From the NCBI RefSeq assembly GCF_003002895.1, contig NZ_PVTI01000004.1, positions 62,001 through 126,000 on the forward strand: 64,000 nt of DNA, read 5' to 3'. The position numbers were made by a program, and so were the translations under genes. The notes beneath the pieces are model-generated. The model did not search any database. It was not told the DNA's origin and was given only the letters and a program-made list of their open reading frames with translations. The stretch's first letter is position 1; every line of letters begins with the position of its first letter. The stretch comes from Knoellia remsis. GTDB taxonomy: Bacteria > Actinomycetota > Actinomycetes > Actinomycetales > Dermatophilaceae. Below are positions 3,404 through 32,260 of this stretch, in pieces.

Positions 3404-4657
3404 TCAGGATAGGTCCCCATCGCCGCGCGCGGAAGGTCGGCTGGTGTCAATGAGGCTGGCGGGGCGAACCGAGCCCGCTCCGAAGCGCGCGCTGGCCCGG
3501 TCGACGGCCCGGTCGGCCTCGCGCCAGCCGTGCTCGGACTCGCCGAGCATGCCCTGGATCGGGGCGGCCTCGAGCCCGACGAGCTTCTCCATGCGCACGC
3601 CGACGAGCCGGATCCGGGCCCGCTGCAGCCCGAGGGCGTCGAAGAGCCCCGTCGCCGTCTCGTAGATCGCCCGGCTCGTGTCGGTCGGCTCACGCAGGGT
3701 GCGGGCACGCGTGATCGTCGTGAAGTCGGCGAAGCGGACCTTGATCGAGACGGTGCGGCCGGTGAGCCGGGCCGAGCGCAGCCGCGCGGCGACCTTGTCG
3801 GACAGGCGCAGCAGCCGGCGGTGGATCTCACGCGGGTCGTCGATGTCGTACTCGAAGGTCTCGTCGGCGCCGATGCTCTTCTCGCGGTGCTCACGCTCGA
3901 CGGGGCGCGGGTCGCGCCCCCACGAGAGGGCGTGCAGGTGCTGGCCGGTGGCCTCTCCGAGCCCGCGCACGAGGGTGGGCAGCGGGGTGTGCGCGATGTC
4001 GCCGACGGTGCGCAGCCCGAGACGGGTCAGCTGCTCCTCGGTGCGCTCCCCCACGCCCCAGAGTGCCGCGACCGGCAGCTGCTGGACGAACGAGATGACC
4101 TCGTCGCGCGGCACGACGACCATGCCGTCTGGCTTGGCGAGCCCGGAGGCGATCTTCGCGACGAACTTCGTCGGGGCCACGCCGACCGAGCAGGTGATGC
4201 CCTGCTCGTCGTGGACGGTGTCGCGGATGAGCGCGCCGATCGTCGCGGGCGACCCGAGCCGGCGGACCGCGCCCGAGACGTCGAGGAACGCCTCGTCGAG
4301 CGAGAGCGGCTCGATCTCCGGGGTGACCGAACGGAAGGTCTCCATGACTGCGGAGCTGATCGCGGCATACAGGCCGTGCTCCGGCGGGAGGACCGTCGCC
4401 TGCGGGCAGAGCCGGCGCGCGCGGGTCATCGGCATGGCCGAGGTGACGCCGAAGCGGCGGGCCTCGTAGGTCGCCGAGAGCACGACGCCGCGGTTGCCGC
4501 CGCCGATGATGACCGGGGTCCCGACGAGCTCGGGGTGCGACAGCAGGGTCGCGGACGCATAGAAGGCGTCCATGTCGACGTGCAGGATCGTGCAGCCGGT
4601 GTCGTCGGGCGGCTCGCTCGACGAGCGCTCGGGGAGGCTGAACTGGCGGCGGGACAT
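3404..4657 (-). CDS. dinB: DNA polymerase IV (Y family)
   Basis: Error-prone Y-family polymerase for translesion synthesis. Palm-domain catalytic carboxylates are visible in HVDMDAFYAS (Asp28, Asp30) and SLDEAFLDV (Asp121, Glu122). The thumb helix-hairpin-helix region (ALWGVGERTEEQLTRLG) and little-finger domain follow. 417 residues is a normal length. The start ATG 4657 is preceded by GAGGAA. No LexA-type palindrome was seen upstream, so unlike dnaE2 it is not obviously SOS controlled. The methyltransferase gene ends 16 bp upstream on the same strand, suggesting one transcription unit. Confidence 0.92.
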   Translation of the reverse strand: MSRRQFSLPERSSSEPPDDTGCTILHVDMDAFYASATLLSHPELVGTPVIIGGGNRGVVLSATYEARRFGVTSAMPMTRARRLCPQATVLPPEHGLYAAISSAVMETFRSVTPEIEPLSLDEAFLDVSGAVRRLGSPATIGALIRDTVHDEQGITCSVGVAPTKFVAKIASGLAKPDGMVVVPRDEVISFVQQLPVAALWGVGERTEEQLTRLGLRTVGDIAHTPLPTLVRGLGEATGQHLHALSWGRDPRPVEREHREKSIGADETFEYDIDDPREIHRRLLRLSDKVAARLRSARLTGRTVSIKVRFADFTTITRARTLREPTDTSRAIYETATGLFDALGLQRARIRLVGVRMEKLVGLEAAPIQGMLGESEHGWREADRAVDRASARFGAGSVRPASLIDTSRPSARGDGDLS

Positions 4658-27898: not shown

Positions 27899-28441
27899 TC
27901 ATCCGCCGAGGCCGAGGCCACGCAGGAGACGGTCGAGCAGTGCCGAGATGGCCTGGAGCGGACCGCCGCCGTCGAGGAGGCCGGCCACGGCGCAGAGCAG
28001 GTTGCCGAGGAGGTTGCCCGCACCCGGGACCGCGGTGATGTCGAGGCTGATCGGCGACAGGTCGATGACGAGCCCGAGGAGGTCGAGGTTCAGCGGGCCG
28101 AGGTCGAGCGTGAGGATCGAGCAGCCCTTCGGGGCGGCGAGGTTCTGGATCGGTGCCGTGAAGTCCGTGCCGCCGGTGGGAAGACCGGTGCCGGTGACCG
28201 TGCCGGTGAGCTGGAGGACGCCGTTGACGACCTCGGTGCTCAGGTTGCTCAGGGCCCCGGTGAACGCCGTGCCGTCGGCGAGCGTGCCGGCGACGGGCAG
28301 GGTCGTGGCCGCGGGCTTCGCGGCGGCCTTGGCGGCGGCTGCGGCCGGTGCGGGGGCGGCCTGGGCGGTGGCGGCGGGCCCGACGGCGAAGACGCCGGCG
28401 ACGGCGGCGGCGGTGGCCACGGAAACGAGTCGGATCTTCAT
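27899..28441 (-). CDS. Secreted protein of unknown function
   Basis: A 180-residue exported protein. The signal peptide covers about residues 1-28 (MKIRLVSV, an Ala/Val core, then TAQAAPA as the cleavage region). It is followed by an Ala/Lys linker and a domain with one Cys pair (GCSILTLDLGPLNLDLLGL, then LLGNLLCAVAGLLD), a Leu/Gly-rich pattern seen in many uncharacterised secreted actinobacterial proteins. The start has AAGGAGAG upstream. A CRP/GlxR-type palindrome is centred about 100 bp upstream, so cAMP-type control is plausible. Confidence 0.65.
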   Translation of the reverse strand: MKIRLVSVATAAAVAGVFAVGPAATAQAAPAPAAAAAKAAAKPAATTLPVAGTLADGTAFTGALSNLSTEVVNGVLQLTGTVTGTGLPTGGTDFTAPIQNLAAPKGCSILTLDLGPLNLDLLGLVIDLSPISLDITAVPGAGNLLGNLLCAVAGLLDGGGPLQAISALLDRLLRGLGLGG

Positions 28442-28534
28442 GGTCTCTCCTTGATGTGAAGGGTCCAGCGGCGGGATGTGCCGCTGTCAGGGAGGGAGAG
28501 CCATGAACCGTCGACCCGTGACGCGAGTCCCATT

Positions 28535-28721: not shown

Positions 28722-29039
28722 TCACCGACCAGCGGCGCCGGGCTTCGGCGCGAGGTCACCGACCACACCGCTCGCGAGGTCGAAGGGAGCGAGCACCTCG
28801 GCAAGGAACTGCTCGGCCGAGGTGATCGTGTGGGCGGCGTCGGCGCCGTCTTCGAGGAGCGCCTCGGTGAGCACCTCGTGATGGATCGCCGAGAGGGCCA
28901 CCACGCTGACCCGTTCCTTCAGGGCCGCCCGGCCGATGTCGTAGCCGGTGAGCAGGGCGGCCTCCTCCCGCCGTGGAAGGTAGCGCAGGAAGGCCACGCG
29001 GTAGCTCTGGCGCACCCGGTCGACGGCATCGACGGTCAT
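28722..29039 (-). CDS. Stand-alone RsbU N-terminal (RsbT-binding) domain protein
   Basis: A 105-residue protein matching the RsbU_N helical domain (FLRYLPRREEAALLTGYDIG, then ALSAIHHEVLTEAL). In Bacillus subtilis this domain of RsbU binds released RsbT and switches on the attached PP2C phosphatase; here no phosphatase follows, and the protein ends in a short Pro/Gly tail. ATG 29039 is chosen because it overlaps the RsbS stop by 4 nt (ATGA). It is the last gene of the sigma/RsbT-RsbR-RsbS operon. By inference it is a docking partner or competitor for the RsbT-like domain encoded upstream. Confidence 0.75.
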   Translation of the reverse strand: MTVDAVDRVRQSYRVAFLRYLPRREEAALLTGYDIGRAALKERVSVVALSAIHHEVLTEALLEDGADAAHTITSAEQFLAEVLAPFDLASGVVGDLAPKPGAAGR

Positions 29040-29419
29040 GGTGTCCACGCGGGCCCGAGAGCCGCCGCAAGGTGGGCCATTCCCTCTTCGAGATCGAGCG
29101 CCGTGGCCACCGCTCCGGTGCCGATGCCCAGCTCCACCATGGCCTGGGCGACGTCGGGCTGGATGCCGACGATGACCGTGAGGGCTCCGCGCAGACGCGC
29201 GATCTCGGCGATGTCTCGCAGCGTCTTGCTCCCGAAGCTGTCGAGCACGTCGAGGGCCGCGACGTCGATGATGATCCCCCGGGCGCGATCCGTGCCCACG
29301 CGACCCACGAGGTCACGCTGCAGCCGAAGCAGCTGGGAGTCGTCGAGGGCAGTGTGGACCGACGCCACAAGGACCTGGCCTTGTCGCAGGATGGAGAAGA
29401 GCGCCGGTTCGGTGTCCAC
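29036..29419 (-). CDS. rsbS: RsbS-like STAS domain protein
   Basis: A 127-residue single STAS domain. In the stressosome RsbS forms the core with RsbR and is phosphorylated by RsbT on a Ser in the DSF motif; here IIIDVAALDVLDSFGSKTL gives Ser61 at that place. GTG 29419 overlaps the RsbR TAG stop by one base, and its own stop overlaps the next ATG, so the genes are translationally coupled. It should scaffold and sequester the RsbT-like domain of the sigma fusion protein. Confidence 0.85.
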   Translation of the reverse strand: MDTEPALFSILRQGQVLVASVHTALDDSQLLRLQRDLVGRVGTDRARGIIIDVAALDVLDSFGSKTLRDIAEIARLRGALTVIVGIQPDVAQAMVELGIGTGAVATALDLEEGMAHLAAALGPAWTP

Positions 29420-30312
29420 TAGCTTGCGCTGGCCTCCTCACGGGTGACGACGTAGCCGAGCAGGCGCTCGGCCTCTTCCAGACCGCCTTGCAGGTCCCCG
29501 ATGGTGTTCATCTTGCTCAGGTCCACGCCCAGGGTGACGAGGGTCTGGGCGATCGTCGGGGACAATCCGGTGATGATGACGCTCGCGCCCATGAGCCGTG
29601 ACGCGTCGACCGTCTGGACGAGGTGGTTGGCAACCGTCGCGTCCACTTCGGGAGCGCCGGTGATGTCGATGACGACGACCTTGGCGCGGTGCCGCCTGAT
29701 CCCGTCGAGGAGCTGCTCGGTGAGCTGACGGGCACGCTCTCCGTCGAGGACGCCGATGATGGGCAGCACGAGCAGACGCTCGCGCACCGGAAGCACCGGC
29801 GTCGAGAGCTCGCGCAAGGCGTCCTGCTGCTGCCGGATGACCCGCTCGCGCTCGTCGACGAAGCTCACGGCCACGGTGTTGGCGATGCGGTTCGCCGCGG
29901 GCTCGTAGGCGTCGAGGACTCGGTTGAGCAGGTCGAAGTCCTGCTGGTACTTCTCGAAGAGGGAGCGCGCGAGCACGTCGCGCAGGAGCAGGACGATCCC
30001 GACCACCTCGTGGGTCTCGACGCCCCGAGGGATGATCCGCTCGGACAGGTCCCGGGCATAGTCCTGGAGCGCCTCGACGCTGCCGGTCTCGAGGACCTCG
30101 ACGTAGTTGTCGTAGACCGACTCCGTCTCGGCGGCGATCTCCTGCGGCGTCATCGCCTCGAGCAGGTGGGCCTCCTGGATGCGGGCGGACCACTGCTCCT
30201 GCAGCACGGCGCGTCGCTCGCGCAGGTGCGCGACGAGCTGGGGCAGCAGCTGTTCGAGGTCCTCGGCGGGGGCATGGTCCCAGGAGCCGGGTTCGGTGAA
30301 GGTGTCGTTCAT
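29419..30312 (-). CDS. rsbR: RsbR-like stressosome sensor (helical N-domain + STAS)
   Basis: A 297-residue co-antagonist: residues about 15-165 form a helical sensor domain and 175-290 a STAS domain (LVLPIIGVLDGERARQLTEQ, VVVIDITGAPEVDATVANH). RELSTPVLPV keeps the Thr171 phosphosite of B. subtilis RsbRA, but the second site (Thr205 in GVPVVDT) aligns with Ala225 here; Thr226 is adjacent. Its ATG overlaps the stop of the sigma/RsbT fusion by 4 nt. It forms the sensory turret of the stressosome with RsbS; the stimulus is unknown. Confidence 0.87.
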   Translation of the reverse strand: MNDTFTEPGSWDHAPAEDLEQLLPQLVAHLRERRAVLQEQWSARIQEAHLLEAMTPQEIAAETESVYDNYVEVLETGSVEALQDYARDLSERIIPRGVETHEVVGIVLLLRDVLARSLFEKYQQDFDLLNRVLDAYEPAANRIANTVAVSFVDERERVIRQQQDALRELSTPVLPVRERLLVLPIIGVLDGERARQLTEQLLDGIRRHRAKVVVIDITGAPEVDATVANHLVQTVDASRLMGASVIITGLSPTIAQTLVTLGVDLSKMNTIGDLQGGLEEAERLLGYVVTREEASAS

Positions 30313-31382
30313 CTCGTGTCCTTTCGGTACCGGGTCATCGTGATCGTCGTGCCTCGGCCGGGGACGGACTCGATGTCGAACTCGTCCATGATCCGCCGGG
30401 CGCCGGGAAGGCCGAGGCCCAGCCCTCCGTAGGTCGTGTAGCCGTCGCGCATCGCGAGCTCGACGTCCTCGATGCCCGGACCACGGTCGCGCGCCACGAT
30501 GCGGATCCCCGGTCGTGACCTGGCCGGCTCGAAGGTCATCCGCCCCCGCTCCGCAAACTTGACGATGTTGCGGGCGATCTCGGACACGACCGTCGCGACG
30601 AGCGTGACGTCGGACCGGTCGAACCCGAGGTCGGCGGCGAGGCGACGCACGGCCACCCGCGCCTCGACGACGTCGTGGTCCTTGGCCACGTCGATGGCGA
30701 CGCGGCCGGAGTCCTGCTGAGAGCTCTCGAGGAGCGGCCCGGCCACGTCGGCGCAGAAGTCGCAGCCCGCCAAGTGGTCGTCGACGCCGGCTTCACGCCA
30801 GCGGCGCTGGTCGCGCAGCGCCACGGCCACGAGAACGGGTCGGCACCGCTCGGTCGGTGGTTCCCGATGGGAGGCGACGATGAGGTACTCGGCGCGCATC
30901 CGCGCACGGAGCCGACGCAGCTGCGCTCCGAGGGCGCCGGCGGTCGTGCCCTCGCGAGCAGCGAGGGTGGCGAGCGAGGTGCCGTCGACCTCGTGGGCCA
31001 GGAGGAGAGAACGTTCCTGCACGGACAGGGACTCCAGCGCTCGACGCACGGCGACCTGGTCCTCCCCCGCCAGCACGCCCATGTCCGGGGCATCGGGTTC
31101 GTCGAGGTCGACCATCCGCGGCTGGTAGCGCTGGAACCGCGCCTCGTCGCGCCACATCGTGGCGATGACGTTGCGTGCAGTGGTGACGGCATAGGCCTCG
31201 ATGCCGCCGTCGATGCGGTCGGACGCGGCCAGGACACGAGCCACCGTCTCCTGCACCAGGTCCTCGGCCGCGGGGTGGTTGCCCACCCGGGCGCGCACGA
31301 CCCGGGTCACGAGAAGGTGCAGCTCGGCCGCCGACGGTTCGGGCGGCCCGTCAGCACCTGAGTCAACGACCGCGGCACCCAC
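30309..31382 (-). CDS. ECF-type sigma factor - zinc-finger - RsbT kinase fusion
   Basis: A 357-residue protein with three parts. Residues about 20-82 are sigma region 2 (AAEDLVQETVARVLAASDRI, AYAVTTARNVIATMWRDEAR) and 112-168 sigma region 4 (ALESLSVQERSLLLAHEVDG, then the helix-turn-helix). Next, Cys180, His203, Cys207 and Cys210 form C-x22-H-x3-C-x2-C (HLAGCDFC), the anti-sigma zinc-finger pattern. Residues 225-357 are an RsbT/RsbW-like GHKL kinase: N box VVSEIARNIVKFA, G1 DRGPGI, G2 GGLGLGLPGARRIM, closest to RsbT. GTG 31382 follows TACGAT by 6 nt; a start at 31466 would add 28 basic residues. No frameshift is seen, so it is one polypeptide. First gene of the stressosome operon. Confidence 0.88.
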   Translation of the reverse strand: MGAAVVDSGADGPPEPSAAELHLLVTRVVRARVGNHPAAEDLVQETVARVLAASDRIDGGIEAYAVTTARNVIATMWRDEARFQRYQPRMVDLDEPDAPDMGVLAGEDQVAVRRALESLSVQERSLLLAHEVDGTSLATLAAREGTTAGALGAQLRRLRARMRAEYLIVASHREPPTERCRPVLVAVALRDQRRWREAGVDDHLAGCDFCADVAGPLLESSQQDSGRVAIDVAKDHDVVEARVAVRRLAADLGFDRSDVTLVATVVSEIARNIVKFAERGRMTFEPARSRPGIRIVARDRGPGIEDVELAMRDGYTTYGGLGLGLPGARRIMDEFDIESVPGRGTTITMTRYRKDTR

Positions 31383-31462: not shown

Positions 31463-32260
31463 TCACCCAGGCTGCGGGGTGTCCTCGGCCTCCTGCGCGG
31501 ACGCCTCGGCCCGGGCCACCGACTCCTCGGTGACGGTCTCACTGACCGCCTCGGCGCCCTCCTCCGCTTGCTCCTGCGCCGCCGTCGGTGCGTCGATGAC
31601 GAGGTCCACCCAGGTCGGCCGGTGGTCGCTCGCCGCGACGAGGTCCTCCTCCGACAGCTCGACATCGGCGTGGGGCGCCGCTTCGAGCCCAGGCGTGGCG
31701 AAGATGACGTCGAGGACCCGCCGGGGCCGGGCGGCGGGGTAGGTCGGCGTCGTCGGCGACACGAGCCGCATCACCCCGGCGAAGGCCTGCCACGCGGCAC
31801 CGGTCTCGGTCTCGTTGAGGTCGCCCGCGAGGACGAGCTCGCTGTCCCGACCGAGCGTGTCGAGGATGACCTTCGCGTGCGCCGCCCGCTCCGCGGCGTC
31901 CAGGCTGAGGTGCACGCTGGCGACCGCCACGGGCTCTCGACCCGGCACCGCCACCCGCGCGAGCGCGAACCCGCGGGTCCGCTGGAGCCGGGCCACCCGC
32001 AGCCGGTGGTGGCGCGACTCGACGACGTCGACGCGCAGCGAGGTGAAGATCGTCGTCCCGCCGCTCCCCCGGTGACGGCCCGACCAGAACATCCCGCAGT
32101 CGCGCGCGAACCCAGCGACCCGCTGCGACGAGAACAGCCGCCGCGGCACCTCCTGGAGGCACAGCACGTCCGGGTCGATCGCGCGCACGACGCGCGCGGC
32201 GGCATACGGGTCGCCCAGGAAGTCACGCGTGTTGTAGCTCGCGACGCGCATCGTCCGCAT
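31463..32260 (-). CDS. Endonuclease/exonuclease/phosphatase (EEP) family protein
   Basis: A 265-residue metal-dependent phosphohydrolase fold. Core motifs are VASYNTRDF, VLCLQEVPR (metal Glu), VASVHLSLD, LAGDLNETETG and SDHRPTWVDLV with the catalytic His. The C-terminal 40 residues are an Ala/Glu-rich tail. The substrate (DNA, phosphoinositide or other phosphodiester) is not evident; no signal peptide is seen. ATG 32260 has AAGGGG upstream and lies 10 bp after the ROK kinase stop, so it is likely in the same transcription unit. Confidence 0.8.
   Translation of the reverse strand: MRTMRVASYNTRDFLGDPYAAARVVRAIDPDVLCLQEVPRRLFSSQRVAGFARDCGMFWSGRHRGSGGTTIFTSLRVDVVESRHHRLRVARLQRTRGFALARVAVPGREPVAVASVHLSLDAAERAAHAKVILDTLGRDSELVLAGDLNETETGAAWQAFAGVMRLVSPTTPTYPAARPRRVLDVIFATPGLEAAPHADVELSEEDLVAASDHRPTWVDLVIDAPTAAQEQAEEGAEAVSETVTEESVARAEASAQEAEDTPQPG

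Follow-up and report, generated by a model that had tools for sequence, protein, structure and literature searches.

An ECF sigma factor fused to the stressosome kinase RsbT in actinobacteria, and a possible direct path from stressosome to promoter

The closest described counterpart of the locus reported here is the RsbRST-RsbU-RsbV-RsbW-SigB system of Bacillus and Listeria, where RsbR, RsbS with its acceptor serine, RsbT and RsbU_N are likewise clustered. To our knowledge, stressosome outputs outside the Bacillales are mostly unknown. For stressosome modules with a globin-sensor RsbR, the available part of PMC9237108 distinguishes eleven types of downstream architecture and presents RsbU_N as an adaptor linking RsbT to varied outputs; the output lies on RsbU_N or on a separate gene, and no sigma factor fusion stands among the architectures given there. 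ECF sigma factors with further parts on the same chain are also on record. For instance, ECF48, ECF52 and ECF53 combine a sigma factor with a zinc finger and a membrane segment (excerpts of PMC8999054 and PMC5826349), and ECF41, ECF42 and ECF56 are described, in sources likewise available in part, as ECF factors with a fused C-terminal regulatory extension.

A gene of Knoellia remsis, lying in a stretch of 64,000 nucleotides of contig NZ_PVTI01000004.1 (here called the window), departs from each of these systems. Compared with Bacillus and Listeria, RsbT forms the C-terminal end of an ECF sigma factor chain and its gene stands first, RsbU_N lacks a phosphatase, the RsbR acceptor is replaced, and the four operon genes include no RsbV, RsbW or SigB-type sigma factor. 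Unlike in the modules in the available part of PMC9237108, it is RsbT itself that carries the output. The protein resembles ECF48, ECF52 and ECF53, as far as the excerpts describe them, in having regions 2 and 4 and then a zinc-type module on one chain in Actinobacteria, but the membrane segment that is a trait of ECF52 and ECF53 is absent and the kinase follows the zinc module directly. The fused C-terminal extension recalls what is reported of ECF41, ECF42 and ECF56, but here the extension is the kinase of a partner-switching complex. The features of the locus are as follows.

30309..31382, minus strand: sigma-zinc-RsbT fusion, 357 aa (an alternative GTG start at 31466 would give 385 aa)
31137..31322, minus strand: sigma region 2, residues 21-82 (Pfam Sigma70_r2)
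30897..31052, minus strand: sigma region 4, residues 111-162 (Pfam Sigma70_r4_2)
30753..30845, minus strand: C180-x22-H203-x3-C207-x2-C210 module, resembling ZAS in its motif alone, which all 96 fusion ORFs scanned have
30333..30680, minus strand: RsbT-type GHKL kinase, residues 235-350 (Pfam HATPase_c_2; boxes; tree with free RsbT)
29419..30312, minus strand: RsbR (RsbRD_N below its cut-off, plus STAS), alanine at the acceptor position; its start overlaps the stop of the fusion
29036..29419, minus strand: RsbS (STAS), acceptor serine in LDSF
28722..29048, minus strand: stand-alone RsbU_N protein of 108 aa, without phosphatase (Pfam RsbU_N, 5.2e-11)
28494..28525, minus strand: promoter-like site CGCGTCAC-N18-TCTCCC, three mismatches to CGCGTCAT-N18-TCTTCA
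27899..28441, minus strand: predicted target gene for a conserved small, probably secreted protein of 180 aa (secretion inferred from the N-terminus)

The original prediction had placed a sigma factor, a zinc motif and a kinase in one uninterrupted frame of 357 codons, and this holds: from GTG 31382 to the stop at 30309 there is one minus-strand frame of 357 residues with Pfam matches to its parts. A plus-strand reading of 30309-31382 was ruled out by two stops. The GTG at 31382 is the likelier start, over the GTG at 31466, because it lies 19 residues ahead of the region 2 anchor and 12 of 12 homologues have an ATG or GTG 16-21 residues ahead of that anchor, which in seven of the 12 is the sole such codon within 60 residues.

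The window fusion matches Pfam Sigma70_r2 (3.8e-12), HATPase_c_2 (1.5e-11) and Sigma70_r4_2 (6.5e-06, at 26.1 bits barely above the cut-off of 25.7), and the NCBIfam model sigma70-ECF (1.2e-17). Both sigma regions are matched in all 49 members searched (Pfam, E <= 0.5), and the region 2 residues D41, Q44 and E45, which may take part in binding the RNA polymerase core, are invariant in 49 of 49. The N, G1 and G2 boxes that had been read in the kinase recur in 96 (SExxRN), 96 (DxGPG) and 95 (GLGxGLPG, the exception being L200) of the 96 fusion ORFs scanned, a set that includes many assemblies twice.

The Cys/His module is harder to place. The predicted spacing C-x22-H-x3-C-x2-C is exact in the window, the four residues C180, H203, C207 and C210 are invariant in 24 of 24 aligned fusions, and H-x3-C-x2-C, the signature of class I zinc anti-sigma domains (ZAS/ASDI) as used in the available part of PMC7406223, is present in 96 of 96 fusion ORFs. 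Of the domains anticipated for a Pfam search, Sigma70_r2, Sigma70_r4_2 and HATPase_c (in the form of HATPase_c_2) were matched, but zf-HC2 was not: neither it nor any other zinc anti-sigma family is among 25 of the 26 Pfam families matched by the 49 members at E <= 0.5, the 26th matching at most one of the 49. Solved structures gave no match to the module to E 10, and its description as a recognisable zf-HC2 domain was accordingly dropped. The label 'anti-sigma' rests on the motif and on the place of the module before a membrane-like segment in five relatives, because no relative is detectable among those Pfam families or in solved structures. The earlier suggestion of an internal inhibitor thus stands in part: with zinc binding assumed from the ligands, it is plausible that the module inhibits the sigma part, since the same cassette precedes a membrane-like segment elsewhere, but it lacks a match to zinc anti-sigma domains among those Pfam families and structures.

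The fusion is confirmed as real, more strongly than in the original prediction. Chance or assembly error as its source is excluded, because 69 named actinobacterial loci besides the window carry it in one frame, with the same domain order (the end of L139 is cut by the contig), at about 45-56% identity to the window protein. By NCBI family, 26 of these loci belong to Geodermatophilaceae, 22 to Intrasporangiaceae and 16 to Nocardioidaceae, with one each from Propionibacteriaceae, Cellulomonadaceae, Nakamurellaceae, Ornithinimicrobiaceae and a Frankiales record. No stop or frameshift is conserved at the junction of sigma and kinase parts; breaks are individual, as in L149 (a MAG whose sigma part is spread across two frames), L155 (with the kinase in a different frame) and L154 (contig start). 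The homologues come from an alignment-based profile scan that returned 334 relatives; a single-sequence scan of the genome contigs had found none. Since only the best 80 of the 334, corresponding to 79 distinct loci, were kept, the named-locus counts lean to close relatives. Among the 80 loci made up of these 79 and the window, 71 are fusions by custom profiles, L149 included; the other nine comprise sigma-zinc proteins without kinase (L156, L158), free RsbT (L157, L159-L162), the contig-cut L154 and the broken L155. In the same family, 25 of 149 genomes match at E 1e-20, 24 with the whole fusion (source genome included) and one (G143) with the kinase only. A phylum-wide draw gave matches in 30 of 396 genomes: four with the full fusion, seven with sigma-zinc proteins lacking a kinase in the chain, and 19 with free RsbT-type kinases only.

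The kinase had been called closest to RsbT, and operon and tree support this, even though the best NCBIfam kinase model is that of SpoIIAB (spIIAB, 3.7e-15; its 56 bits are far below the equivalog cut-off of 135) and the best structure scores are also against SpoIIAB. The kinase profile finds free RsbT at about 1e-43 to 1e-55, records from Bacteroidota and Acidobacteriota included, and leaves the genome's own RsbW-like protein (L165) unmatched at E 10. In a kinase tree of 57 rows, which holds no named RsbT, RsbW or SpoIIAB and in which the bootstrap is not fully settled and the window row is long, all 28 fused kinases and the unfused L052 and L053 fall on one side of a 99/97 branch. The fused kinase is accordingly taken as probably RsbT. 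L052 (G143) and L053 (G136) are kinase-only proteins within the fusion clade, with no RsbR or RsbS nearby, and are probably remnants or solo derivatives. The tree topology fits a single fusion event with two later losses.

The other half of the protein has relatives of its own. In a sigma-zinc tree of 34 rows, 25 fused rows stand on one side of a 92/80 branch, opposite nine kinase-less relatives, a split that also fits one origin of the fusion. The five of these nine that were inspected continue after the zinc module into a hydrophobic segment, which probably spans the membrane, and then into another domain. Because these five carry such a segment and domain where the fusion carries RsbT, it is probable that RsbT took the place of a membrane sensor behind a sigma-zinc cassette. 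The sigma-zinc proteins without kinase (L202-L208, L156 and L158) may also constitute an unstudied membrane-bound ECF group.

The gene order fusion-RsbR-RsbS-RsbU_N is the same in all 23 family relatives fetched (L029-L051). RsbR and RsbS stand beside the fusion in 70 of 71 fusion loci, the remaining one (L139) being at a contig end, and RsbU_N is found in 68 of 71; all gaps across the operon genes (L100, L129, L139) are contigs that end there. Identity to the window among the 23 family relatives is 82-90% for RsbR, 62-83% for RsbS and 49-56% for the fusion, and 36-56% for RsbU_N (in 21 of the 23). The contrast within one operon between RsbR at 82-90% across the family and its fused kinase partner at about 50% is unusual. 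In the case of RsbU_N, only 3-45 residues follow the match in the 68 fusion loci, and RsbU_N joined to a PP2C phosphatase was found in none of them. In free-RsbT loci, 24 of 29 of which have RsbU_N, 72-761 residues follow it, the value of 72 coming from L157, whose frame runs to the contig end. The order in free-RsbT loci is mostly RsbR, RsbS, RsbT and then, where found, RsbU_N heading a longer protein; four such long proteins, inspected by eye, contain PAS/GAF/PP2C or PAS-histidine-kinase parts.

The acceptor serine of RsbS is kept throughout, in 76 of 76 fusion-locus matches (74 DSF, one DSY and one DSV, the last from one copy of L150), and likewise in all 27 matches of the non-fusion group, the broken copy L155 included. 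The acceptor position of RsbR, the residue after TGxxx[VI]D, is presumably that of the B. subtilis and Listeria acceptor threonine. Serine or threonine occurs there in none of the 72 fusion-locus copies (56 E, 9 Q, 4 A and 3 V; A in the window), as against serine in 21 of 27 copies from free-RsbT loci (L183 counted three times); the other six of the 27 likewise lack S/T. The accessible portion of PMC9237128 names the Listeria phosphorylation sites and the reset by RsbX. Because the RsbR site is non-phosphorylatable and the operon has neither RsbX nor an RsbU phosphatase, the B. subtilis cycle cannot apply unchanged. Elsewhere, the source genome encodes one SpoIIE-type phosphatase above cut-off. 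The idea that this genome has no SigB/SigF-like sigma factor was rejected, as one was found, its kind judged by eye.

A promoter-like motif, CGCGTCAT-N18-TCTTCA, was first noticed upstream of a gene for a small, probably secreted protein beside the operon. In 830 kb of DNA (70 named loci and 23 kb of the window), exact copies of CGCGTCAT and TCTTCA number 27 at a spacer of 18 and zero at spacers of 12-17 and 19-24; with one mismatch there are 50 at spacer 18 versus 0-2 at other spacers, and with two mismatches 99 versus 0-31. The reversed motif, allowing one mismatch, has zero copies at spacers 16-20 in the same DNA. The 14-letter form was used because the form without the leading CG was swamped at spacer 17 by matches that look coding, and the shorter form was dropped. 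Sites with at most one mismatch are present in 43 of 69 loci, the DNA examined from the other 26 containing none. Upstream of the fusion gene there are 14 on its strand (at distances of 336-441 or 820-1,763 bases) and nine on the other (55-3,088 bases); downstream there are 16 on its strand (15 at 1,583-1,765 bases and one at 4,064) and 11 on the other (1,675-2,422 bases).

Within the family, the motif accompanies the fusion. Among the 149 family genomes, an exact spacer-18 site occurs in 15 of 24 fusion genomes versus three of 125 others (Fisher 6e-12, with related species treated as independent), and the spacer-17 form shows no association (five of 24 versus 17 of 125). One-mismatch sites summed over the 24 fusion genomes number 56, versus five for the reversed pattern; three of the 24 (G067, G098 and G148) have no site even with one mismatch. 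The association is partly shared inheritance, because the motif was found beside the operons. Only five exact sites, in three fusion genomes (two of them of one genus), are at a distance from the operon or on a different contig. No association was seen outside the family, since a class-wide draw of 394 genomes gave an exact site in none of four fusion genomes (G000, G032, G546 and G713) and in 18 of 390 others. The window site ranks second of 127,924 positions by a PWM of 50 sites, whose training sites overlap with the family fusion genomes, rank one lying inside the RsbR gene; by a PWM of 26 sites taken outside the family it ranks fourth in the 23-kb part. The only one-mismatch site of the source genome is on another contig (C10).

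The gene behind the window site is a candidate target. Its 180-aa product has no Pfam family at E 0.1, and the gene is present in 21 of 24 fusion genomes versus three of 125 others in the family. In the three non-fusion genomes the motif is absent, with best PWM scores of at most 2.1, and in 20 of the 21 fusion genomes the score is at least 12.2 (by the all-site PWM, whose training sites overlap these genomes), the exception being G098, a partial gene match with a weaker site further up. For 18 of the 23 family loci (placed in the family by their genus), the outside-family PWM of 26 sites gives its top score ahead of the gene for the secreted protein; in two more (L119 and L152) the top score is a site placed before that gene, and in L092, L098 and L115 it lies elsewhere. 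Genes downstream of the sites, taken by a script rule, vary and include small secreted-type proteins, a PRC/DUF2382 protein and a STAS protein. In several Geodermatophilaceae the genes for small proteins behind the motif immediately precede the fusion gene, so that the fusion would regulate its own operon in these cases. By eye, an LGPLxLxLLGL-like motif of the 180-aa protein recurs in other predicted targets. In Cellulomonas aerilata (L118), a divergent STAS-domain gene lies behind a one-mismatch site adjoining the fusion gene.

Other words were noted upstream of the fusion gene. In relatives (for instance L109, L113 and L119) the eye finds a recurrent TANNNT-like box some 7 bases ahead of the GTG start, with GGCGTA present in 32 of 71 upstream regions versus five in shuffles; the housekeeping sigma factor may therefore transcribe the operon into a leaderless message. 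CGTCAT/CATGAC words are also enriched and were left unused, being in part, by eye, the start codon of a divergent gene.

The physical tie between a promoter-recognition module and the stressosome kinase, proposed from the sequence of the gene, thus gains support from the RsbR-RsbS-RsbU_N operon and from the spaced motif. The operon, its missing phosphatase, the loss of the RsbR acceptor and the motif had not been part of the original prediction. The reading that we hold to be moderately probable is that the RsbR/RsbS complex would retain the sigma factor through the RsbT tail and free it upon RsbS phosphorylation, bypassing RsbU, RsbV and RsbW. At rest, the RsbT part would dock on the RsbR/RsbS complex and thereby keep the sigma part from RNA polymerase, with the Cys/His module perhaps also shielding it. 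On a signal, RsbT would phosphorylate RsbS and then leave the complex, and the freed chain would join RNA polymerase and read CGCGTCAT-N18-TCTTCA promoters, predicted to be mostly those of genes for small secreted proteins, and probably also that of its own operon in some lineages. The lone RsbU_N could bind the freed RsbT part, either braking it or keeping the chain open, and reset would fall to a phosphatase encoded elsewhere.

Other arrangements of the same parts have to be weighed against this one. The sigma and kinase parts share one chain, the best model and structure scores of the kinase are those with SpoIIAB, and RsbW and SpoIIAB, both GHKL kinases, are each kinase and anti-sigma factor at once. 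The RsbT part might then be an RsbW-like intramolecular anti-sigma factor, with binding to unphosphorylated RsbS/RsbR freeing the sigma part, which would be active while bound to the stressosome. This is possible but unlikely: the kinase goes with RsbT by operon and tree, and RsbT is not known to act as an anti-sigma factor. In addition, RsbW-like proteins were taken as non-interacting controls in the ECF analysis of PMC7406223, according to the available part of that paper.

A main switch in the zinc module, responding to redox or metal, with the stressosome tail only localising or fine-tuning the protein, also seems rather improbable. The four invariant ligands are in its favour, as is the existence of the cassette without RsbT in relatives, five of which, on inspection, continue into the hydrophobic segment and domain. 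However, RsbR, RsbS and RsbU_N follow the fusion everywhere except at contig ends, RsbS retains its acceptor serine, and the module has no detectable relation to known zinc anti-sigma domains. Very unlikely, in our judgement, is a sigma part that is a relic or docking domain of a protein working as a normal RsbT, by way of RsbU_N and a phosphatase from another locus, since regions 2 and 4 match Pfam in 49 of 49 members with D41, Q44 and E45 invariant, and family genomes with the fusion tend to have the spaced promoter-like motif; kinases without a sigma part (L052 and L053) do occur inside the fusion clade, and the genome does have a SpoIIE-type phosphatase and a SigB/SigF-like sigma factor elsewhere. 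Storage of the sigma factor on the stressosome and its direct release remain the preferred reading.

The original prediction knew of no described protein with this order of domains, and a literature search likewise found no fusion of RsbT to a sigma factor. The 2021 reclassification of the ECF family lay outside the reach of that search and may include an ECF group that ends in a GHKL domain. Varied stressosome outputs, the RsbU_N adaptor and ECF factors with fused zinc and membrane parts are known; within the sources as far as they were available, the fusion of RsbT to a sigma factor is not described.

Taken as a whole, it is moderately probable that in several actinobacterial families, and from one origin, the stressosome stores and releases a sigma factor directly, giving single-step control of RNA polymerase, with the RsbR acceptor lost and RsbU_N serving as adaptor or brake. 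The natural loss of the RsbR acceptor offers a clean case for the separate roles of RsbR and RsbS phosphorylation. As the output is written into the kinase, and both its promoter sequence and its target genes are predicted, four proteins, RNA polymerase and a single DNA fragment would suffice to test the whole path from stressosome to promoter. The arrangement suggests that in many soil actinobacteria a stress sensor may release a transcription factor directly, without the usual protein relay.
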